This document shows, in pieces, positions 3,786-39,730 of a DNA stretch of 39,730 bases. Each line of letters starts with the position of its first letter. Position 1 is the first letter of the stretch. The stretch is from positions 1-39,730 of the IMG/VR virus record IMGVR_UViG_3300009128_000049; one strand, given 5' to 3'. The position numbers were made by a program, and so were the translations under genes. This DNA comes from a virus. The notes beneath the pieces were generated by a model. It saw nothing but the letters and a program-made list of their open reading frames with translations. It had not been told where the DNA came from and searched no databases.

Positions 3786-4463
3786 ATGGCGGCAGTGACG
3801 CTCGGAACGCCCCACACGGCACTGAACGGCGACCCCCTGAAGGTCATCCCGATCCGAAACACCGCCACCAGCGGAGTGCCCGAGGACGTGACCCCTCGGC
3901 ACGGGCTCCAGCACATCTGTCTCTACTTCTCCTCGGTCGCGAACGCCAACACCTTCGCCTTCGGCCGTCCCATCGTGTGCTGCGCCTACGTGGACACCAA
4001 CGCGAACACCGTGCGCCCCGACTGGGATCCGGACGACTCGACGGGGACGGTGACCTTCACCGAGGCCGGCGTGGGCGCGTCCACCGGGTACCTGCACATC
4101 TGGTACTACCCGGGACCCACGGACAGCTCCGGCACGACCACGGCAACGATCGGCACGCCGCACAGCGCGAACAACGGTGACCCCCTCCGTTGCCTCCCGA
4201 TCCGGAACACGGCCTCGGCGGGTCGCCCCGAGGACGTGCTGTATGGGAAGGAAGGGCTCCAGTGCAGGGTCCTCTACAGCGGGTCTGTGGCGAACAACGC
4301 GCACTTTGCCACGGGTCGCCCTGTGATCTCTGCCGCGGTCATACCCGCCGCCGCTACGCAGACCTGTGCGACGACGTGGGATCCCGACGACGCAACGGGA
4401 GCAGTGTACGCGACGATGACTGGGACCATTGCGGCCTGGTGTGTGGTTTGGAGCCAGGAGTAG
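3786..4463 (+). CDS. duplicated-domain beta-rich protein, probably virion-associated
   Basis: The 225-residue protein consists of two homologous halves: residues 4-93 and 120-209. Shared blocks include GTPHxAxNGDPL, PIRNTAxxGxPEDV, SVAN, FAxGRP and WDPDDxTG. Each half is rich in beta-type residues and ends in a Trp/Tyr-containing strand. The halves are joined by a GVGAST...PTDSSG linker. No family recognised. Lying between the operon leader and terminase it is probably structural, for example a capsid-decoration or host-binding protein; that is inference. There is an extra Cys pair (VCCAY) in the first half only. Confidence 0.7.
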   Translation: MAAVTLGTPHTALNGDPLKVIPIRNTATSGVPEDVTPRHGLQHICLYFSSVANANTFAFGRPIVCCAYVDTNANTVRPDWDPDDSTGTVTFTEAGVGASTGYLHIWYYPGPTDSSGTTTATIGTPHSANNGDPLRCLPIRNTASAGRPEDVLYGKEGLQCRVLYSGSVANNAHFATGRPVISAAVIPAAATQTCATTWDPDDATGAVYATMTGTIAAWCVVWSQE

Positions 4464-4500
4464 CTCGTTGCACGCGCGCCACTTCTTCCACGAGGACGGC

Positions 4501-6009
4501 ATGGAGAAGTCCAAGGCCGTCCTCTACGACATCACGGGCTACAAGATGTACGCCCCGGAGGTGAAGCGCGCACACCAGAGCTCGGCGCGGCTCCTGATCG
4601 CATCGGCGCCAGCCCGAACCAGCAAGTCCTTCACGTTCGGCCACGGCGAGGTGGTACACGACTTCTTTCCGCAGCTCACGCGACACGAGGGCGTGTGGAA
4701 GCCGCTCATTCCCGACAAGAACGACGCGGTGCGCAACTGGCTCATCGGCACCGACTACGACACGATCAAAGAGTGGGACTACGCCTGGACGGATCTCATC
4801 GACAACGGTCTGATCGAGTCGATGGGGGGACGGGTAGAGAAGGCCAACAACTCGCCCCGCCAGGGCAACATGATCATCCAGGCCGTCTTCGGCCGCGACC
4901 CATCCGGCAAGATCGTCCGCTCCATTCTTCAGGGCAAGTCGGCATCGAACGAGCGCTCCCTTCAGGGCGAGGAGGTCCGCACGGGCATCCTGTCCGAGTC
5001 GGCGGAGCATGAGGAGCGGGTCTACACCAAGTATCTCTCGACGCGCTGCGGCCGGGTGATCTGCCCGACGACCCCGAAGCGCAAGGCTCTTTGGCTCTAC
5101 GAGCTGATGGAGGCCGGCGAGGAAGACCCCACCCTCGGGATCGAGTCCATCACCTTCACTCCCCACTGCAACCCGTCCTATGACTGGGAGCGCTACCACC
5201 AGGCCCGCCGACTGGCGGAGTCCAGGGCGGGTGAGGGGAAGGCGCACGAGGACTCCGAGTTCGCGGAGCAGTTCCTCGGGCTCTGGATCTTCGAGGGTGG
5301 CAAGGTGCTCCCGTTCCGGTGGATGGATCTCGAGGACGGCAGACCGTCCCACGTCGTGGATGAGCCCCCCTTCGGGATCGAGATGGCAGAGTGGTTCGTC
5401 TCGACGGACTACGGGTACGACCATCCGGCAGTGGCCCTCTGGTGGGCGCGACTCCCGGACGACCGCGTGCATATCGCCCACGAGCTCTACGAGCGCGGCC
5501 TCAATACCTCCGCCTTTGTGAACTGGGTCCGCGAGATCTCGGCGGACAAGGGGATCAAGCCGGCGTATTACGTGGGTGATCCCCGCCGCCCCGAGGTGGC
5601 GGACCTGATGGTGCAGATGGGGCTGCCCATCTACCCGCGCGACGCCAAGTTGATGAAGGAGCGCGCCGGATCGCACGCGGCCCTGGTTGAGCTGATGAGT
5701 CATAGCCCCGACACGAACCAGTGCCGGTTCAGCATCTCAAGCGAGTGCAAGGACACCATCACCGAGTGGAAGCACTTGCGCCGCAAGGATGGGTGGACGG
5801 GTGACGAGCACGCGGCTGCGGCGCTGGTGGGCAGGGATGACGCATACGACTGCGCTCGCTACGGCGCGTCCACCGTCGTTCGCGAGCGGAAGGAGCGCTC
5901 ACCGAACGCGATGGTCGAGCGGCATCGGAGAGCGCGGAAGAGGGCGCTGCGCATGAAGCGGAAGACCGGCCCGGAACTGGTGGGCTACAGCCCGGGGATG
6001 ATGGCCTGA
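4501..6009 (+). CDS. terL: terminase large subunit (packaging ATPase and nuclease)
   Basis: This protein packages phage DNA into the prohead. An N-terminal ATPase carries a Walker A-like loop SAPARTSKS (residues 35-43), with Ser in place of the usual Gly before Lys, and a Walker B-like ILSESAEHE (163-171). PTTPK (189-193) fits the coupling motif. A C-terminal RNase H-like nuclease follows: Asp303 in STDYGYD, Asp360 in YVGDPRRPE and Asp446/Asp450 in GRDDAYD. The length of 502 residues is normal. ATG 4501 has GAGG upstream; TTG at 4468 with AGGAG seven bases before is a real alternative adding 11 residues. The stop overlaps the portal start. Confidence 0.92.
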   Translation: MEKSKAVLYDITGYKMYAPEVKRAHQSSARLLIASAPARTSKSFTFGHGEVVHDFFPQLTRHEGVWKPLIPDKNDAVRNWLIGTDYDTIKEWDYAWTDLIDNGLIESMGGRVEKANNSPRQGNMIIQAVFGRDPSGKIVRSILQGKSASNERSLQGEEVRTGILSESAEHEERVYTKYLSTRCGRVICPTTPKRKALWLYELMEAGEEDPTLGIESITFTPHCNPSYDWERYHQARRLAESRAGEGKAHEDSEFAEQFLGLWIFEGGKVLPFRWMDLEDGRPSHVVDEPPFGIEMAEWFVSTDYGYDHPAVALWWARLPDDRVHIAHELYERGLNTSAFVNWVREISADKGIKPAYYVGDPRRPEVADLMVQMGLPIYPRDAKLMKERAGSHAALVELMSHSPDTNQCRFSISSECKDTITEWKHLRRKDGWTGDEHAAAALVGRDDAYDCARYGASTVVRERKERSPNAMVERHRRARKRALRMKRKTGPELVGYSPGMMA

Positions 6010-14603: not shown

Positions 14604-16300
14604 TGGGCGGCAGCTTCCAGACATTCGATACGAAGGAGTGGAAGGGACTCAACGAGGATGAGAACCCGACCGCGCTTCGTATGGGCGAACTCGCCATCGC
14701 CGAGAACGTGTGGAGATACGGGCACCTGATTGGTACCCGCCCTGGGACGCAGTACGAGGGGACTGATGGCGACTGGGACGAGACGGTGGACGCAGGGGAG
14801 GGCGTCGAGGATCCGTGCCAAGGGCTCCACGATTGCTCCAACGCTTTCGACGCCACCCGCAAGCTCGTGGCGATCTTCGGCGGAGACATCTACGACGCGC
14901 ATGACAACGTCATCGGGAAGGCTGGCGCTGCACCGGCCACCGTGACGGCGGGCGCGGACAACATGTGGACCTTCGCAATGCACGCGGGGAATGTGTATGC
15001 GGCGGGTGGCGCCACTGCGGCGCCGGATACCGTCTGGTACTGGGATCTCGCTGCGGGGAACGTGGAGGCGGTGACCTTCGAGGAGTCCACGGGTGTCGGG
15101 CAGATCTTCGCCGGCTACATCTTTGAGAAGTGGAACCGCCTCTGGATCAACGGCCTCACCGGCACCGCGGCCAGCAACAACCCGATGGTGGGGCGGTACT
15201 CGGCGCTCAACGATGGCACCTCATGGTCCCCGGCGAACACCATCGGCGGGAGCAGCGCGGTGGGCGGCTTCTCCTCCTACGGCGACGAGTTCTCCACCGG
15301 GTGGGGCTCCTACCACGACAACCAGACCGGCGATTTCCTCCTGTTTCTCACCAACAAGAACATCTACTCCATCGTGCAAGAGGGGAACGTCTATACGCCG
15401 TTTAGCACCAATGACGTGATCCCCACAGGATGCGTGTCACAGCGCGCGTTCGTGGATCTCGGGGTGGACGCGGGCGACGCGGTATACCTCTCCGAGAAGG
15501 GTGTGCACTCCCTCCGGCAGTCACAGATCCACGGGCCTCGGTCCGATCGCTTCCTCTCGTGGCCTATCCGCAACACGTTCGCGACGCTCAACCGCTCGCG
15601 CCTCAAGTACGCGACGGGTGCCTACCTGCACGAGCACGGCTTGGTAATCTTCGCCGTGCCGACTGGGTCGAACACATACAACGATCTGATCTTGGCGCTC
15701 GACGTGCGCGACGCGGACACCAAAGAGGGGCTCACATCGGAGAGCGCCATCTGGTACATCTGGCGGCTTGCGAGTAGCGATGCCATGCACTTCCCGCAGG
15801 TTCTCGTGCCTGCCCGTGACCGTTCCAGCAGCGAGACGCCTTACGTCTACGGCGGGAACCTGAAGGGGGACGTGTTCCGGTTCACCACCGCGAACTTCTC
15901 CGACATGGGCGCGGCCTACGCGACACACTTGCGAACTCGCCACGATGATTTCGGTGTCCCGATGGTGACGAAGATTCCAGGGAACGGAGAGGTGTGGGTC
16001 GAGCCCACGGACGACTACTCCATCACGATGAACCTCGTGTTCGACAACGGCAGGCGAACGTCGAGCGCCCGCACACTGGATCTCGTATCCCACGGGCTCA
16101 CGCTTTCGTTTGTCCTCGATGACACAGCCATTCTCGGGTCGGAGAGCAACCTCCAGCGTAAGGTGTTTTTCGGAACGGGGCACGGCGAGACGATTGCCCA
16201 CGACTTTCACCACAGCGGCGCGAATCAGCCGTTCTGGATTGCCCGCATCTCGCAGCAGGTTGCTGGGCTAGGAGACGAGCTAGGCGATGTGGCAGCATAG
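14603..16300 (+). CDS. tail nozzle (tail tubular protein B-like)
   Basis: This 565-residue protein starts MGGSFQTFDTKEWKGLNEDE. The opening pattern (a short lead, then GLNEDENPTALRMGELAIAE and NVWRYGHLIGTRPGTQYEG) is characteristic of podovirus nozzle proteins, which form the lower tube of the short tail. The remainder is beta-rich with repeated Trp/Tyr-Gly turns consistent with a propeller-like body. It overlaps the adaptor upstream and the fibre-like gene downstream. Normal length for the family is near 550-800. Confidence 0.8.
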   Translation: MGGSFQTFDTKEWKGLNEDENPTALRMGELAIAENVWRYGHLIGTRPGTQYEGTDGDWDETVDAGEGVEDPCQGLHDCSNAFDATRKLVAIFGGDIYDAHDNVIGKAGAAPATVTAGADNMWTFAMHAGNVYAAGGATAAPDTVWYWDLAAGNVEAVTFEESTGVGQIFAGYIFEKWNRLWINGLTGTAASNNPMVGRYSALNDGTSWSPANTIGGSSAVGGFSSYGDEFSTGWGSYHDNQTGDFLLFLTNKNIYSIVQEGNVYTPFSTNDVIPTGCVSQRAFVDLGVDAGDAVYLSEKGVHSLRQSQIHGPRSDRFLSWPIRNTFATLNRSRLKYATGAYLHEHGLVIFAVPTGSNTYNDLILALDVRDADTKEGLTSESAIWYIWRLASSDAMHFPQVLVPARDRSSSETPYVYGGNLKGDVFRFTTANFSDMGAAYATHLRTRHDDFGVPMVTKIPGNGEVWVEPTDDYSITMNLVFDNGRRTSSARTLDLVSHGLTLSFVLDDTAILGSESNLQRKVFFGTGHGETIAHDFHHSGANQPFWIARISQQVAGLGDELGDVAA

Positions 16301-30103: not shown

Positions 30104-30918
30104 CGCACTTCTCCTCTCAGATACTCCACGAGGCGGGCGGTCTGCCATTCGCGCTCCGCGGCTCTGTCCGCGGCGCTGTACGCGCTGTACGCGGCGCTGA
30201 GCGCGGCGCTGGCCGCGGCTCTGTCCGCGGCGCTGAGCGCGCTGGCCGCGGCGCTGTACGCGCTGTCCGCGGCGCTGTACGCGGCGCTGTCCGCGGCTCT
30301 GTACGCGGCGCTGTACGCGCTGTCCGCGGCGCTGTACGCGGCGCTGTCCGCGGCGCTGTACGCGGCGCTGTCCGCGGCTCTGTACGCGGCGCTGTACGCG
30401 CTGTCCGCGGCGCTGTACGCGGCGCTGTCCGCGGCTCTGTACGCGGCTCTGTACGCGGCGCTGAGCGCGGCGCTGTACGCGGCTTCGAGGTCGTCCAGCG
30501 TCGCACTGCCGTCAGCGTAGAGGCGAGCCACCTCTATCGAGTCGCGCACGCGGGAGTCGTCGGGATACTTTACCTCATAGTTGCCCAGCACCCGCTCCGC
30601 GCAATCGCACGCAAACAACCGTGCGGTGCGCTCGTCCCACTCTTCTATGCGACGCAGGAGACGTGCTTCGCCAACGACGATCTTGTGCTTGTCCTCGATC
30701 ACCTCACCGCGATACTCCGCGGTGTAGATGACAGGGCCGAGCCAGTGGACGAGATCCTGCTCGCGGCAGATGTGGTAACCGCTCGCGCACGGCTCCATCC
30801 TCTTGATTCGCGGCATCCAGTCGCCGGGTGTCTCGCCGTCGGGTAGTGACCATGTACCGTGGCCGCCGTGGCACGGCGAGCCATCTTCGCCTAGCACCTT
30901 GTAGTAACTACTCGTCAT
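30100..30918 (-). CDS. DUF7666-type protein with long Ala-rich repeat tail
   Basis: This 272-residue protein has an N-terminal domain (residues 1-140) with blocks I associate with DUF7666: GTWSLPDGETPGDWMPRI, CASGYHICREQDLVHWLGP, and WDERTARLFACDCAERVL. From residue 146 to about 260 it changes into tetrapeptide units A-A-(Y or D)-(S or R), with occasional three-residue units. It ends with an ordinary charged tail (EREWQTARLVEYLRGEVR). The repeat is predicted helical. The protein function is unknown; the repeat probably expands and contracts. RBS AAGGAG lies 8 bases upstream of ATG 30918. Confidence 0.75.
   Translation of the reverse strand: MTSSYYKVLGEDGSPCHGGHGTWSLPDGETPGDWMPRIKRMEPCASGYHICREQDLVHWLGPVIYTAEYRGEVIEDKHKIVVGEARLLRRIEEWDERTARLFACDCAERVLGNYEVKYPDDSRVRDSIEVARLYADGSATLDDLEAAYSAALSAAYRAAYRAADSAAYSAADSAYSAAYRAADSAAYSAADSAAYSAADSAYSAAYRAADSAAYSAADSAYSAAASALSAADRAAASAALSAAYSAYSAADRAAEREWQTARLVEYLRGEVR
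30162..30484. repeat. 12-bp unit minisatellite inside the DUF7666-type gene
   Basis: Twelve-base units of the type GCGGCGCTGTAC / GCGGCGCTGTCC, interspersed with nine-base units, repeat some 26-28 times. Each codes (minus strand) for A-A-Y/D-S/R. The sequence has no stop in several frames on both strands, which creates spurious open frames there. Units are not perfectly identical, but blocks of several units recur. Confidence 0.9.
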
Positions 30919-31191: not shown

Positions 31192-32439
31192 CTATTCCCT
31201 CACCAGCCGCACCAGCGACCCGTCCTGGTGGAGCGAGTACCGCTCGGTAGTCTTCACGTTGGCGTGTCCCAGCATCCGCTGGATCAGCGGGAGCATCGCA
31301 GGGTCGGCACTCCGCGCAGCCGTCGCGCTGGAGTGTCGCGTGCCCTCGCGCACCGGAACTGCCGGCACCTTCGCCGCCTCACACGCCCGCTTCCAGTGAA
31401 CCTCCAGCGCCTTGTGCCCCCACATCCGCCCGGTGGCCCCAGGAAACAGGAACTCCTGCGTCACCCGCGCATCGGTGGGGACGTGCTCCGCGATCCACCC
31501 CGCGAGCTGATCGCTCACCGGCAGCGTCCGCACCCGCCGCGTCTTCGTCCACTCGCGCACGGGGGAGGAGACGAACGGACCAGCCGCCGCCCGCTTGATC
31601 GTCATCCACCCAGCCGGATCGCGGGGGCCTCGCTCCCGTACCACCTCGTACACTTCGGGGCGCAAGGCTCGCGCCTCTGAGGGGCGAAGCCAGAGGTTCG
31701 CGAGGGCGAGGAAGATCCCCCGACGACCCGGCGGGATGGCCTCGAGGACTGCCGTCTGCTGGGCTGGGGCGAGAAGCTGGGGGGCATGCTCCGGCATCCT
31801 GATCGACGGGAAGTCGGGAACGGCGTGGAACTCCTGCCGCATCTTCAGCCAGCCCATCATCGCCCGCATGGTGGCGAGGATGTTGCGGACGGTGCCGGGG
31901 GCGAGGCCTTGCGTCTGGAGATCCATCGCCCAGTCGTGGAGGTGGCGGGTGCGGATCTCGTGAACGCCGACGCCTTGCCACCGCCCGAAGTGCTTCTCGA
32001 TCTTGCCGGTTATGTGGCGCACGCTCAACTCGGCGATCTCGCCGGCCCGCGCCCGCTCGTCCTGGTGCTCGAGCCACCGCTCGGCGCAGGCGAGGACGTG
32101 GTATCTGCCGGTGGGGCGGAAACTGTCGAGCACGGCTTCGAGGGGCTCGCCCTGGGCCACCCGCACCCGGATGTGGTGCAGCGCGTCGCGGGCGGTGTCG
32201 GCGTCGCGGATGGGCATCGGCCCTGCGGGGCCGGGAATGGAGTTGATCCGCCCTACCCTCTCGGGGATGCCCAGTCGGCGCGCTTCCTTGCGGAAGTCGA
32301 GCTCGTACCTCTGCACCCCCGAGGGGGTACGCCTACCTTGGATTCGCCCGTACTCTCGCATGGCTGCCCATGCTTGTACCCCAAGCGGCAGCGGCGTGGA
32401 ACCCGCGAAAGTGGGGCGTAAGTCGAGCGCTGCGCTCAC
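31192..32439 (-). CDS. int: tyrosine integrase
   Basis: This 415-residue protein performs site-specific recombination between phage and host attachment sites. An N-terminal arm-binding/core-binding part occupies residues 1-215. The catalytic domain has Arg252 (WLRPSEARAL), Lys299 (WTKTRRVR), Arg368-His369 (REGTRHSSATA), His392 (MLGHANVKTTERY) and nucleophile Tyr401. In the second box the usual first His is Glu, as in a known EGT(R/K)H subgroup. GTG 32439 overlaps the previous stop. Its first 14 codons are duplicated at 33884-33926. An attachment site next to the gene is expected but cannot be pinned down. Confidence 0.92.
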   Translation of the reverse strand: MSAALDLRPTFAGSTPLPLGVQAWAAMREYGRIQGRRTPSGVQRYELDFRKEARRLGIPERVGRINSIPGPAGPMPIRDADTARDALHHIRVRVAQGEPLEAVLDSFRPTGRYHVLACAERWLEHQDERARAGEIAELSVRHITGKIEKHFGRWQGVGVHEIRTRHLHDWAMDLQTQGLAPGTVRNILATMRAMMGWLKMRQEFHAVPDFPSIRMPEHAPQLLAPAQQTAVLEAIPPGRRGIFLALANLWLRPSEARALRPEVYEVVRERGPRDPAGWMTIKRAAAGPFVSSPVREWTKTRRVRTLPVSDQLAGWIAEHVPTDARVTQEFLFPGATGRMWGHKALEVHWKRACEAAKVPAVPVREGTRHSSATAARSADPAMLPLIQRMLGHANVKTTERYSLHQDGSLVRLVRE

Positions 32440-32440: not shown

Positions 32441-32651
32441 AGGAGGCCCTCGAAATCGCCCCAGGAGCGCCGATCTCCCTCGTGGAGGTGCTACCGGACC
32501 CCTCTGAGTGCTTTCGCCATCCCTTCGCCTGAGGAACGCGGCCAGGGGGCCAGCAGATGGGACAGATCCACTCTCCCACCGGCTCGCAGCCCTTCCGACG
32601 GTTCGGATGCCCCGCGGGAAGGTCGGGGTAGTCGGCGTTCCCCTTAGCCAC
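32436..32651 (-). CDS. small Cys-motif protein between methyltransferase and integrase
   Basis: This 71-residue protein starts at GTG 32651, overlapping the methyltransferase stop, and its own stop overlaps the integrase GTG. Residues 22-33 read CEPVGEWICPIC, a possible zinc site. The C-terminal half is Gly/Ser/Arg-rich and probably disordered. Overlap at both ends argues for translation in series with its neighbours. No family recognised. Confidence 0.55.
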   Translation of the reverse strand: MAKGNADYPDLPAGHPNRRKGCEPVGEWICPICWPPGRVPQAKGWRKHSEGSGSTSTREIGAPGAISRASW

Positions 32652-33609
32652 CGATGGCCTCTTTCGCCGTCACGACGAAGACCGCCGCGACCTGCGGAAC
32701 GATCGCATTGCCCGCACCCCGCAGGAGCCCCACTCTTTCGGATACCCCATGAGCCACAGGGAAAAGTGCGGGTTCAACCGGAATCCGCCTCTGGTTGCCG
32801 TCTCGGCAGAGGTGCCAGCGGCATGGCACACCCGCCCAAGCAGGGCATTCTCCGAGGTGTTCTCGCAACTCTTGGCGGTCCCATCCTTGTGATCGCGGGT
32901 TGTCGGCGTCGGCCAACCCGATAGAAGTTCCGCCTGGTCCTCCAACTTCCTCAGGCCGCCGCCCGGGGTGTTTCGCTCGCAACCCCCACCGCTGGGGAGT
33001 TTTGGGGTCTGCCAACCTGCGACTGTATGTACCTGTAGTCGCAGGTTGGCAGGGTCTCGCTGCAACTCCGATGGGCTCGCGTCTCCATGTTTCGCATCCT
33101 GCTCTGTCGGTGTGCCCCACCCACCATAAGCGTTGGCGGATGTGCGGGGCGCCGACGCCCGCAGCGCACAAATCTGCGGCCCCGACCGCGTATCCCATGC
33201 CCTCCAAGTCAGTTCGTACTCCTTCGACCCACGCTCGCCCATCAGTCGACGCAACCTGCTCGCCAAAGATGATTGAAGGTCGGCGCTGGGCGATGAGCCA
33301 CCGAAAAGCGGGCCATAGGTGTCTCTCGTCGTCAATTCCTTCGCCTTTCCCGGCGACACTGAATGGCTGACAAGGGCACGATCCGGTCCAGATGGGTTGG
33401 TCGTCGGGCCAATGAGCCATCTGGAGTGCGTAAGACCATCCGCCAATGCCTGCGAAAAAGTGACACTGGAGAAATCCGTTGAGGTCGGATGGGCAAACCT
33501 CTGTGATGCTCCTTTCGTCAACCTCTCCCTCTGCAATCAACCGCCGCGCAATCAACTCTCGCAGCCATGCTGCGGCGCGCGGGTCGTTCTCGTTGTAGTA
33601 GGCCGCCAA
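32644..33609 (-). CDS. C5-cytosine DNA methyltransferase
   Basis: This 321-residue enzyme has the ordered motifs of C5-cytosine methyltransferases: I FAGIGG (residues 52-57), IV PCQPFS with catalytic Cys80, VI EQV (117-119, Gln for the usual Asn), VIII PHIRQRLWWVG (155-165) and X GNAIVPQ (about 302-308). It transfers a methyl group from SAM to DNA, here probably for protection against restriction. The target-recognition region contains repeated LAD(A/P)-like segments. The start TTG 33609 is the first usable in-frame codon; the frame continues upstream to TGA at 33652. A second open frame lies inside it. Confidence 0.88.
   Translation of the reverse strand: MAAYYNENDPRAAAWLRELIARRLIAEGEVDERSITEVCPSDLNGFLQCHFFAGIGGWSYALQMAHWPDDQPIWTGSCPCQPFSVAGKGEGIDDERHLWPAFRWLIAQRRPSIIFGEQVASTDGRAWVEGVRTDLEGMGYAVGAADLCAAGVGAPHIRQRLWWVGHTDRAGCETWRREPIGVAARPCQPATTGTYSRRLADPKTPQRWGLRAKHPGRRPEEVGGPGGTSIGLADADNPRSQGWDRQELREHLGECPAWAGVPCRWHLCRDGNQRRIPVEPALFPVAHGVSERVGLLRGAGNAIVPQVAAVFVVTAKEAIGG
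32670..33536 (-). CDS. alternate-frame open frame inside the C5 methyltransferase gene (possible dual coding)
   Basis: A 288-codon frame on the same strand, in another phase, lies wholly within the methyltransferase gene. Its product contains ordered segments I recall from many independently annotated hypothetical proteins: SPSADLQSSLASRLRRL, LTWRAWDTRSGPQICALRAS, three GWxTPxxxD/K-type blocks (GWGTPTEQDAKHGD, GWQTPKLPSGG, GWPTPTTRDHKDG) and NPHFSLWLMGYPKEW. Either it is a real overlapping gene, or it reflects conservation of the main frame. Starts are TTG only. I keep it as possible. Confidence 0.4.
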   Translation of the reverse strand: MQRERLTKGASQRFAHPTSTDFSSVTFSQALADGLTHSRWLIGPTTNPSGPDRALVSHSVSPGKAKELTTRDTYGPLFGGSSPSADLQSSLASRLRRLMGERGSKEYELTWRAWDTRSGPQICALRASAPRTSANAYGGWGTPTEQDAKHGDASPSELQRDPANLRLQVHTVAGWQTPKLPSGGGCERNTPGGGLRKLEDQAELLSGWPTPTTRDHKDGTAKSCENTSENALLGRVCHAAGTSAETATRGGFRLNPHFSLWLMGYPKEWGSCGVRAMRSFRRSRRSSS

Positions 33610-33651
33610 TGGCTCATACCGCCCCTCTTGGATCAGCCCCCGGAAACCAGA

Positions 33652-33756
33652 TCAGCTCCCCGCCCCCCGGAGGGCGCCGCGAGTACGCAAGCTGCGGTGT
33701 TCTTCGTATGCAGCCACGGCGGCATCGATCTTGTCTTTGGGTAGGGGCGCAGGCAT
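33652..33756 (-). CDS. 34-residue ORF upstream of the methyltransferase, possibly truncated HTH
   Basis: From ATG 33756 the frame reads MPAPLPKDKIDAAVAAYEEH and ends at TGA 33652. The first 25 residues look like the opening of a small HTH protein (a KIDAAVAAYEEHxSLR start is common). The stop is followed in frame, after 14 more codons, by the methyltransferase TTG. So this could be a lost N-terminal extension, a decayed gene or a short leader peptide. No clear ribosome site was seen. Confidence 0.35.
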   Translation of the reverse strand: MPAPLPKDKIDAAVAAYEEHRSLRTRGALRGAGS

Positions 33757-33777
33757 TATGCGTACCCCAAGATCGAC

Positions 33778-33926
33778 AGCACCAGCCCGCTCACCGCGCG
33801 CCCCCGTTGGCTAACCATCGTCCATCAACTCCCTCGATTCCGGGCACTACAGCCCCTCTCCCTGCGGCAAGCGGGAGGCGTGCGGAACCCGCGAAAGTGG
33901 GGCGAAGGTCGGGCGCTGCGGTCACC
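33778..33926 (-). repeat. duplicated element, copy C: integrase start joined to the post-integrase element
   Basis: This stretch unites two repeats that are separate around the intact integrase: the 43-bp integrase start (33884-33926) and the 88-bp post-integrase element (33778-33865). They are only 18 bases apart. It looks like an integrase locus from which nearly all the coding part was lost. TTGGCTAACCATCG (33807-33820) recurs at 31177-31190. Confidence 0.75.
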
Positions 33927-33973
33927 GCGAGTTCTCGCCCTGGGAGGCACTCTGGGGCCGGGTCACGCGCCAT
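33791..33973 (-). pseudogene. integrase 5' stub / decayed frame
   Basis: On the minus strand, GTG 33925 opens a frame encoding VTAAPDLRPTFAGSARLPLA, which matches the integrase start (SAALDLRPTFAGSTPLPL). It then runs on into unrelated sequence and ends NGGAR at TGA. An in-frame ATG at 33973 overlaps the end of the N4/N6 methyltransferase and would add 16 residues. I read it as a remnant after deletion of an integrase body; a newly made small gene is possible. Confidence 0.55.
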
Positions 33974-34847
33974 CCAGCGCGAACAACTCGCCCAAGGCTA
34001 GCTGCTCCGCGTGCTTCAGGTTCTTCACGGCGATCTCGTAGTATTCCTCCTTCAGTTCCATCCCGACGAATCGCCTCCCTGCTTTGACCGCCTCAAATCC
34101 CTCACTTCCGATCCCCGCGAACGGCGAGAGCACCACGTCGCCCGGGTTCGACCACAGCCGAACGCACCGCTGGATCAGGTCGAGCTGAAGCGGGCAGATG
34201 TGGCGCTCGTCATCTTCGCCGCGGGCCTCGGCGACGTTGAGAGTATTGGTCTCCCTGATCCCGTACCAGACCGGGTGCGCCCACTTGATCCATTCCTCGT
34301 TCGACACGTCCGTCTTGACTGGCTCCGCGCTCTCCCCGGGTGCCCGGAAGAGCAGCACGTAATCCGCCATCGCGGGCCGGCTCCACGTCGAGTCCTTGTT
34401 CTTCTGGATGAACATCAGGGCTTTGGCCTTTGTGCGGATCGCCTGCGCTTGCGGGTTCTTGTCTACAACGATCTCCCCGTCGTAAATCCACCCGGCCTCG
34501 ACGTGATGCCTCACCACATCTGCCCGGAAGTCTCGCCACCCGATGACGCCATGAGTGGCCTTCGTGGTCGTGATCTGCTGGACGTGGACGCAGGAACGGC
34601 GGGCGGGTTTCGTGGAGCGCAGGATCTCCTGAATCACGAAAGAATAGTGCTCGAAGAACTGGTCATAACTATCGGAGTTCCCTAGGTCGCGCTCGCTCGC
34701 GGTGTAGGTGTAGAGAGACGCGAACGGTGGCGAATACACCGACAGTCCGACACTTTCATCGGGAACCCCGCGGAGTGCTTCGCAGCAGTCCGCGCGATAG
34801 ATCACCCACCCTTCGCCATGTGTCTGCCCGATCACGGTATGGGTCAT
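33963..34847 (-). CDS. N4/N6 (amino) DNA methyltransferase
   Basis: This 294-residue protein carries the beta-class signatures: motif IV SPPF (residues 39-42, after VGLSVY) and motif I SPFAGIGSEGFEAVKAG (241-257) followed by FVGMEL. SPPF favours N4-cytosine methylation, though N6-adenine members exist. The middle is the target-recognition part. It is the last intact gene of the leftward chain and overlaps the MazG-like gene by 4 bases. With the C5 enzyme, it would help the phage avoid host restriction. Confidence 0.88.
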   Translation of the reverse strand: MTHTVIGQTHGEGWVIYRADCCEALRGVPDESVGLSVYSPPFASLYTYTASERDLGNSDSYDQFFEHYSFVIQEILRSTKPARRSCVHVQQITTTKATHGVIGWRDFRADVVRHHVEAGWIYDGEIVVDKNPQAQAIRTKAKALMFIQKNKDSTWSRPAMADYVLLFRAPGESAEPVKTDVSNEEWIKWAHPVWYGIRETNTLNVAEARGEDDERHICPLQLDLIQRCVRLWSNPGDVVLSPFAGIGSEGFEAVKAGRRFVGMELKEEYYEIAVKNLKHAEQLALGELFALDGA

Positions 34848-38217: not shown

Positions 38218-38639
38218 CGCTTCACCCTCGCGAAGTTGTCGAGCACCGCGGCGAAGATCGGATGGACGCGAGAGGGTGACGACTGCGCCACCTCGGCCAA
38301 GTGCTCCGCGTGGTCGATCGCGTCGTCACTCGGCCCCGGCTGCCTGATGCCGTCGATCTCCTCGCGCTCGCGGTTGCAGGAGGCGCAGAGAAGCTCACCG
38401 TCGCCCACCTCCACGAGCCGGTTGCTCGTGGCGATGTCGATCCCGTGCTCGCCCTTCGTCAGGCGCTCGGGGCCGCAGCCGCAGTCAGCGCAGCGGCGCG
38501 GGGGGCGGTTCTCGGGGAACTCTCGAGGTGCGCAGTCGATCAAGCAGGCGTAGCAGTAGCGCTTGCCGTCGGCGCCGGTCGTCTCTGCCGGGGTCGCGCA
38601 CATCGGCGTAGAGCAGGTGAGCGGGTTGTAGGTCGGCAT
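38214..38639 (-). CDS. multi-Cys zinc protein, HNH-like
   Basis: This 141-residue protein starts MPTYNPLTCSTPMCATPAET. The start is fixed by a TGATG overlap with the upstream gene. It has several Cys pairs: CYAC (29-32), CADC (50-53), CASC (85-88, followed by NRE). The stretch CADCGCG...KGEHGIDI...LLCASCNRE resembles the zinc frame of HNH endonucleases, but the catalytic His-His/Asn set is incomplete, so a structural zinc protein is as likely. The tail is helical. Confidence 0.6.
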   Translation of the reverse strand: MPTYNPLTCSTPMCATPAETTGADGKRYCYACLIDCAPREFPENRPPRRCADCGCGPERLTKGEHGIDIATSNRLVEVGDGELLCASCNREREEIDGIRQPGPSDDAIDHAEHLAEVAQSSPSRVHPIFAAVLDNFARVKR

Positions 38640-38824
38640 CAGCCGATTCCGTGGCAAACTTCGCAGCGCAGCGGCACGTCTGCGGCGATGGAGTCGGCGG
38701 TATCGGCGGGCGTGATCGCCTGCCAGTGATCGAATACCCACGTATCGCTGCCGCGCAGCGGGGCGTGGGCGCCGCAGTTCACCATCCCTCGTTCGTCCCA
38801 GAAGAGTCGATCCTTGTCGGACAT
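38639..38824 (-). CDS. small Cys protein, first gene of the leftward early operon
   Basis: The 61-residue protein starts at ATG 38824 with GGGAGG eight bases upstream, and ends LRCEVCHGIG, with a single CxxC pair plus Cys18 (GMVNCGAHAPLRGSDTWVFD). It is the first gene below the early promoter at 38859-38887. Early phage genes of this size often counter host defence or alter host metabolism. No family recognised. Confidence 0.6.
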   Translation of the reverse strand: MSDKDRLFWDERGMVNCGAHAPLRGSDTWVFDHWQAITPADTADSIAADVPLRCEVCHGIG

Positions 38825-38841
38825 CGCTGGCCTCCCATAAA

Positions 38842-38855
38842 TTGCGTTCACGCAG
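38842..38855. promoter_or_regulatory. operator O1 (TTGCG-N4-CGCAG)
   Basis: TTGCGTTCACGCAG is one mismatch from the TTGCG-N4-CGCAA consensus. It lies just downstream of the -10 of the leftward early promoter, covering the start region. Confidence 0.7.
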
Positions 38856-38858
38856 CTT

Positions 38859-38887
38859 ATTATCGTCCAGAAGTTGCGATAACGCAA
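38859..38887 (-). promoter_or_regulatory. leftward early promoter
   Basis: On the minus strand: -35 TTGCGT (38887-38882), a 17-base spacer, and -10 GATAAT (38864-38859). It drives the chain of early genes starting at 38824. The -35 is inside operator O2 and O1 follows the -10, so binding at either would block RNA polymerase. Confidence 0.75.
38874..38887. promoter_or_regulatory. operator O2 (TTGCG-N4-CGCAA)
   Basis: TTGCGATAACGCAA is a perfect 5-4-5 inverted repeat. It overlaps the -35 box of the early promoter. Confidence 0.8.
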
Positions 38888-38937
38888 GGTTTTTCTGCAA
38901 ATAGGGTGGGGGTAGCCGAAAAGCCTATAGAAAACGA

Positions 38938-39222
38938 CTAGTTATCGAGGTAGGCGTCGTCCGGGCGCGGGCGTGCGCGCTCCACAGCCGTCAAGAGCTC
39001 TGCCTTCGACTCGATGCCGGTGAGGCGCTTCAGGCCATCGTAGATGCGGGCGGAGACCCGCTGGGTGCGTCCTTTCCGCAGCCGCAGGATCGTGGTGGGA
39101 TGCACCCCCATCGCGTATGCGACCGCCTGGACGTTGACCCGTTCGTTCAGGAGAAAGAACTTCGGGCGCCGCTGGGCCTCCCAGTAGATGAAGTCGAGCA
39201 CCTGCTCTCTCTCGTCGGCCAT
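38938..39222 (-). CDS. HTH regulator, Cro-like
   Basis: This 94-residue protein has a helix-turn-helix at residues 31-52 (VQAVAYAMGVHPTTILRLRK), with recognition helix HPTTILRLR, close to that of the divergent regulator (HPSTIGRIR). A helical N-terminus and an ordinary C-terminal tail complete it. It is transcribed leftward, away from the other regulator, and precedes the early operon; this is the place of Cro. Weak ribosome site (TAGG, eight bases). Confidence 0.78.
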   Translation of the reverse strand: MADEREQVLDFIYWEAQRRPKFFLLNERVNVQAVAYAMGVHPTTILRLRKGRTQRVSARIYDGLKRLTGIESKAELLTAVERARPRPDDAYLDN

Positions 39223-39241
39223 GAATGGAACCTACCCGAAC

Positions 39242-39255
39242 CTGCGATGGCGCAA
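39242..39255. promoter_or_regulatory. operator O3 (CTGCG-N4-CGCAA)
   Basis: CTGCGATGGCGCAA is one base from the TTGCG-N4-CGCAA consensus. It lies 20 bases above the start codon of the leftward regulator and may control it. A further half site (GCGCAA) follows at 39265-39270. Confidence 0.65.
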
Positions 39256-39278
39256 TGGCGATCGGCGCAAATCCTCTC

Positions 39279-39310
39279 TTGACAACGAAGTTGCGAAAAC
39301 GCAATATATC
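39279..39310 (+). promoter_or_regulatory. promoter of the rightward regulator
   Basis: -35 TTGACA (39279-39284) is perfect. The -10 is either AATATA (39303-39308, 18-base spacer) or TATATC (39305-39310, 20-base spacer). Operator O4 fills the spacer. The start of transcription would be at or next to the ATG at 39314, so the mRNA would have no leader. Confidence 0.6.
39291..39304. promoter_or_regulatory. operator O4 (TTGCG-N4-CGCAA)
   Basis: TTGCGAAAACGCAA is a perfect 5-4-5 inverted repeat between the -35 and -10 of the rightward promoter. Binding here would repress the rightward regulator gene. Confidence 0.8.
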
Positions 39311-39313
39311 GAA

Positions 39314-39553
39314 ATGGACTTTCGGATCTTCATGGAGCGCGTCGGGGCGAAACCGGCGGACGTTGCGAGAAAGACTGGGCTTCACCCGTCCACCATCGGG
39401 CGAATCCGAGACAAGGCGCAGGTTCCCGATGCGACGACCATGCTCAAGCTCAATCGCTGGGCGGAAGAGGCTGCGACAGGTGTGGGGCTGAAGCCTTCAG
39501 AGCGTCTCGACTGGGACTATCTGATGGAGAAGGACGCAGGCGCGGCGGCGTGA
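39314..39553 (+). CDS. HTH repressor, CI-like
   Basis: The 79-residue protein reads MDFRIFMERVGAKPADVARK then TGLHPSTIGRIRDKAQVPDA, a Cro/C1-type HTH at residues 14-36. ATG 39314 is chosen because it begins directly after the -10 and no upstream start has a ribosome site. It has no C-terminal peptidase or dimer domain like that of lambda CI, so release would need another signal. It is probably the lysogeny regulator. The opposite regulator shares its recognition helix. Confidence 0.78.
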   Translation: MDFRIFMERVGAKPADVARKTGLHPSTIGRIRDKAQVPDATTMLKLNRWAEEAATGVGLKPSERLDWDYLMEKDAGAAA

Positions 39554-39572: not shown

Positions 39573-39730
39573 TCATCGTGTGCCCATCGTGGCATAGAAG
39601 TCAAGCGAATTCTCGGGGGTGAGAGGTTGGCCGTCGGTCTTTTCGCGAGCGAAAGCGAGGCGTTCCAGATCAGGCTCGTGCGGGAGGAGGACGGGGATTC
39701 CTTCCGCTGCCAGGTCCGAGACGATGAGGG
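39573..39730 (-). CDS. 3' end of an unidentified protein (partial)
   Basis: A minus-strand frame enters from the right edge and reads LIVSDLAAEGIPVLLPHEPD, continuing LERLAFAREKTDGQPLTPEN, to TGA at 39573-39575. About 52 residues are inside. The codon usage fits a real gene and it faces the CI-like gene tail to tail. No family can be recognised from this piece. Confidence 0.5.
   Translation of the reverse strand, partial: LIVSDLAAEGIPVLLPHEPDLERLAFAREKTDGQPLTPENSLDFYATMGTR

Follow-up and report, generated by a model that had tools for sequence, protein, structure and literature searches.

Mycobacteriophage Avani (Avanivirus) carries an integrase and a switch of two divergent HTH genes, a 164-aa repressor and cro, between which lie three perfect copies of the 14-bp palindrome TTGCG-N4-CGCAA; one variant copy lies within the repressor gene. 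The cro-side copy forms a -35 element (TTGCGT-N17-TACATT), and we infer that the copies function as operators in this switch. A 1.1-kb piece of the region matches 348 phage records, many of them annotated as immunity repressor or Cro. In phage lambda, the two HTH regulators CI and Cro share one operator family (OR/OL) that overlaps divergent promoters, CI has a C-terminal self-cleaving/dimerisation domain, and the repressor transcript from PRM is leaderless. Leaderless transcripts encode both cI and cro in the immB region of the telomere phage PY54, where a Cro site precedes the repressor gene, only one operator is present and the proteins are lambda-type (PMC4488713). In the integration-dependent immunity system of BPs, an operator (CGACATATGTCG) sits between the -10 and -35 elements of a switch promoter, the promoters are divergent, and attP lies within the repressor gene (PMC4557955). 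Cluster A mycobacteriophages have a repressor-controlled early promoter and stoperators that are asymmetric and dispersed over the genome (PMC9283540).

Here we analysed an IMG/VR virus record (IMGVR_UViG_3300009128_000049) from position 1 to 39,730, and refer to this whole 39,730-nucleotide stretch as the window. A sequence-only reading had reported two perfect and two single-mismatch copies of TTGCG-N4-CGCAA, and all four are present where it placed them. O1 (38842-38855, TTGCGTTCACGCAG, one mismatch) covers the predicted start site of an early promoter; O2 (38874-38887, TTGCGATAACGCAA, no mismatches) supplies, with its first six minus-strand bases TTGCGT, the -35 element of the same promoter; O3 (39242-39255, CTGCGATGGCGCAA, one mismatch) overlaps the -35 region of a promoter proposed for the regulator P1; and O4 (39291-39304, TTGCGAAAACGCAA, no mismatches) falls within the -35/-10 spacer of the putative promoter for the divergent regulator P2. 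The centres of O1 and O2 are 32 bp apart, about three turns, which puts them on the same face of the DNA.

This clustering is not random. When the surrounding 800 bp were subjected to 3000 dinucleotide shuffles, never more than two sites with at most one mismatch arose, and when any 5+5 palindrome with a spacer of 0-12 was allowed, the observed cluster score was not reached once in 400 shuffles. Four copies of a 5+5 palindrome in a span of 470 bp, with two perfect ones among them, are unique to the switch region, a tandem-repeat stretch at about 30.1-30.5 kb aside. That stretch (30157-30483) consists of about 28 copies of a 12-bp repeat, CGCGGCGCTGTA, inside overlapping plus-strand open frames where the structural region ends. 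Whether the motif occurs as often elsewhere in the genome had been raised as a possible objection; the only further site with at most one mismatch in 39.7 kb lies at 15929, within a structural gene. A weight matrix built from O1-O4 scores 19-28 bits on its own sites and at most 10.3 elsewhere in the record, a comparison that, the matrix having been trained on these same sites, mainly shows the absence of dispersed copies.

Each of the four sites overlaps a promoter that we read by eye from the sequence; a strict sigma-70 consensus scan of the region passed none of the three. The putative early promoter (38859-38887, minus strand) reads TTGCGT-N17-GATAAT, with a start predicted near 38852, and conforms to a 17-bp rule proposed across viruses (see below). 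The candidate P1 promoter (39229-39255, minus strand; sequence reading only) reads TTGCGC-N15-TAGGTT, and the putative P2 promoter (39279-39307, plus strand) reads TTGACA-N17-CAATAT, with a weak -10. For both regulators the predicted start falls at or next to the ATG, and their transcripts would thus be leaderless. The placement proposed earlier, with O2 over a -35, O1 after a -10 and O4 in a spacer, agrees with these promoters, to which we add the overlap of O3 with the -35 region of the candidate leaderless P1 promoter.

The two divergent HTH genes flanking O3 and O4 are both supported as coding by codon usage, which rejects the frames overlapping them. P1 (38938-39222, minus strand, 94 aa, +0.43 bits per codon) has the predicted recognition helix HPTTILRLR with Arg47, and P2 (39314-39553, plus strand, 79 aa, +0.38 bits per codon) has PSTIGRIR at residues 25-32 with Arg30. 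The helices of the two proteins (VHPTTILRLR and LHPSTIGRIR) conform to a common pattern, G[VL]HP[ST]TI-x-R-[LI]-R. That both genes encode HTH proteins had been claimed from the sequence, and the evidence for P1 is weak: HTH_31 and HTH_26 matches below the curated cut-off. P2 matches HTH_31 with an E-value of 0.00047, also below the curated cut-off, and phrog_2328, a transcriptional repressor family, with an E-value of 0.00049. A structure model of P2 made without an alignment is confident (pLDDT 86) and shows a five-helix HTH domain, whose structural neighbours, none at an E-value of 0.001 or better, are Cro/C1-type HTH proteins including P22 c2, SinR and restriction controller proteins; the single-sequence model of P1 was poor and too weak for use. 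Searching a solved-structure collection by sequence gave no match, tblastn of P1 and P2 against phages gave none either, and P2 had no relatives among genomes, phages or plasmids. The earlier remark on the unknown family subgroup of the regulators stands: judged by these comparisons, P1 and P2 are too diverged for placement in a named subfamily.

Leftward from 38824, an early operon takes in a helicase and a pair of DNA methyltransferases and reaches as far as a tyrosine integrase (31192-32439, minus strand; PF00589 over cut-off, phrog_1 at 1.4e-30), and because the phage encodes this integrase we take it to be temperate. The first gene of the operon (38639-38824, minus strand, 61 aa) is supported by codon usage and by a GGGAGG ribosome site at 38831-38836; it has no family match, and viral contigs gave three short matches that were not useful. 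The two methyltransferases, of C5 and N6/N4 type, adjoin the helicase at 32644-34847, and this helicase is 46-49% related to helicases of actinobacteriophages.

How does this locus compare with the described systems? It shares with Avani the operator sequence, a similar number of operators, two divergent HTH genes and an integrase, and differs in that P2, at 79 aa, is shorter than the Avani repressor and in that the early operon has a putative promoter of its own beyond P1. The Avani proteins have only short HTH similarity to P1 and P2, and homology beyond the HTH is not demonstrable. By analogy, the window's switch should work like an Avani-type switch on the same operator. It resembles lambda in having two HTH regulators with one operator family overlapping putative divergent promoters, and the predicted P2 transcript is leaderless like that of the lambda repressor, but the operator sequence differs, there is no tripartite OR, and no site occupies the lambda activating position. 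A lambda CI in the strict sense is ruled out, as P2 is an HTH domain only, with no space for a cleavable C-terminal domain. As in PY54, the regulator transcripts of the window are predicted to be leaderless, and a putative site for the Cro-like protein (O4) lies ahead of the probable repressor gene. With BPs the window shares putative divergent promoters and, at O4, the placement of an operator in a predicted promoter spacer, whereas the operators themselves are unlike; BPs-type integration-dependent immunity is ruled out by the distance between the integrase and the repressor candidate at 39314, about 6.9 kb. The stoperator system of Cluster A, although it resembles the window in the repressor control proposed here for an early promoter, is likewise ruled out, since the window's sites are palindromic and confined to the switch, and none of high score occurs elsewhere in the 39.7 kb. 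We also rejected the inverted repeats of Adephagia as a parallel, as its authors place none in the repressor/Cro region (PMC11373665).

The same operator recurs more widely. Viral contigs scanned for pairs of operators separated by 10-30 bp gave 37 stretches, several of which are the repressor/Cro region of Avani and its kin. By an automatic pattern, an HTH-like gene lies within 800 bp of 8 of the 37, against 1 of 24 for an arms-reversed control, and reading of the loci adds L023, L033 and L044 to those with an HTH. A -10-like hexamer exactly 17 bp after the operator's TTGCGN was found at six sites, against a shuffle mean of 1.1 (P = 0.0012), in a reduced-redundancy set of viral loci from which the window itself was left out. 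A second scan, for the operator followed by TATAAT at any gap, gave at least 13 cases at 17 bp among the matches listed, compared with about five at each other spacing (P = 0.0025); also among the matches listed, a second operator lay nearby in 5 of 13 at 17 bp and in 2 of 82 at other spacings (P = 0.0004). At positions 4741-4787 of L023, a phage of low GC content whose CI-type gene is unrelated, the operator likewise serves as a -35, 17 bp from TATATT. On the protein side, of the HTHs no more than 700 bp away from a perfect operator, 13 of 14 have an arginine at one recognition-helix position, compared with 0 of 6 elsewhere in the same loci; with some of the 13 mutually related and the background small, this count is a lead and not proof. 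Both window proteins have this residue (P1 Arg47, P2 Arg30).

The sequence-only reading had taken the locus for an independent version of the switch. This part is not supported, because known actinobacteriophages and other viruses have the operator sequence, the number of operators and the arrangement of divergent HTH genes as well; the locus appears to be a switch of familiar type and not an independent invention. What seems new is that in unrelated viruses the first half of the operator would supply the -35 of a promoter whose -10 lies 17 bp away and, as a lead, that an arginine at one recognition-helix position may mark the HTHs beside such operators. We suggest, tentatively and at somewhat less than even odds, that TTGCG-N4-CGCAA is a widespread operator class, adopted convergently by unrelated phages since its first half can serve as a -35 (TTG) at 17 bp from the -10, and read by recognition helices with one fixed arginine. 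If so, repressor binding and promoter strength would be written in the same bases and operators would be predictable from protein sequence; if the operator/-35/arginine rule holds, sequence could serve to predict the operators of uncultured phages and the immunity groups to which they belong.

We read the region as a CI/Cro-type lysis-lysogeny switch, the immunity region of a temperate phage, with a probability of roughly 0.8. It is the best reading because the phage has a tyrosine integrase, and the lambda-like switch proposed earlier is borne out by the operators and their placement, their non-random clustering, a divergent pair of coding HTH genes and the HTH fold modelled for P2, and by mycobacteriophages in which this operator accompanies genes annotated as repressor and Cro. 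For the mechanism we infer the promoters, the binding, the assignment of the repressor role and the order in which the sites fill. P2 and P1, as small Cro/C1-type HTH proteins, would bind TTGCG-N4-CGCAA as dimers; that both bind the same operators is predicted from their shared recognition helix. In the lysogen, P2 made from its leaderless transcript would fill O2, O1 and O3, covering the -35 and the start site of the early promoter and the P1 promoter, respectively, so that the early genes are off. At O4, in its own promoter, P2 would limit its own level, and in lytic growth P1 would switch P2 off at this site. P2 is probably the lysogenic repressor and P1 probably the Cro-like regulator.

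The identity of the repressor is less sure than the switch itself, and we favour P2 at about three to one. The roles could be swapped, with P1 as lysogenic repressor and P2 as lytic Cro-like regulator: P1 is the longer protein, P2 is Cro-sized, and weak HTH matches do not tell a repressor from a Cro. We nevertheless consider this unlikely, as P1 is read in the same direction as the early operon and P2 away from it, like Cro and CI in known switches, and as the best scores in a small comparison set, weak as they are, link P1 to phage Cro proteins and P2 to a phage repressor. That both proteins are small also fits a reading in which their role is auxiliary and the actual immunity repressor is encoded beyond the record. 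The record stops 177 bp past P2 and may be incomplete; a search for an end repeat, as a sign of completeness or circularity, found none. A repressor beyond the record is still improbable, given that the operators lie only on the early promoter and both regulator promoters, where a main switch acts.

It is very improbable that the palindromes act as terminators of transcription or as RNA hairpins and not as protein-binding sites. A terminator scan does flag O1, O2 and O4, owing to T-rich stretches behind them, but the stems are of 5 bp only, none of the flagged places coincides with the end of a gene on the strand concerned, and other viruses keep the arms and the distance to the -10 while the spacer letters change. 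Five-base arms separated by N4 are also typical of the sites of CRP/FNR-type proteins, and the string TTGCGNNNNCGCAA occurs in a comparative study of regulators, FNR-like ones among them (PMC1274295); a literature search with the operator strings gave nothing on phage switches. Binding of such a host regulator is nonetheless scarcely credible, since four copies stand at phage switch promoters with none elsewhere in the phage bar the single-mismatch site at 15929, and since the operator recurs beside phage-encoded HTH pairs with a common recognition-helix residue.

With the CI/Cro-type reading, the window extends the recognisable two-protein switches to a very diverged phage. Its terminase (4429-6009) has a sole match, to Microbacterium phage Shocker at 25% identity, and its integrase has no match among phage records; from these we conclude that the phage is deeply diverged. 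Against genomes, the integrase gave one weak Sulfitobacter match only, and among viral contigs no relatives were found for P1, P2, the terminase or a 276-aa early gene. Convergent with P2, a leftward frame (39573-39728) whose codon usage resembles that of coding sequence is truncated by the end of the record. At 554-922, a probable coding frame matches an otubain-type cysteine peptidase family (PF10275) at 20.0 bits, below the cut-off of 24.3.
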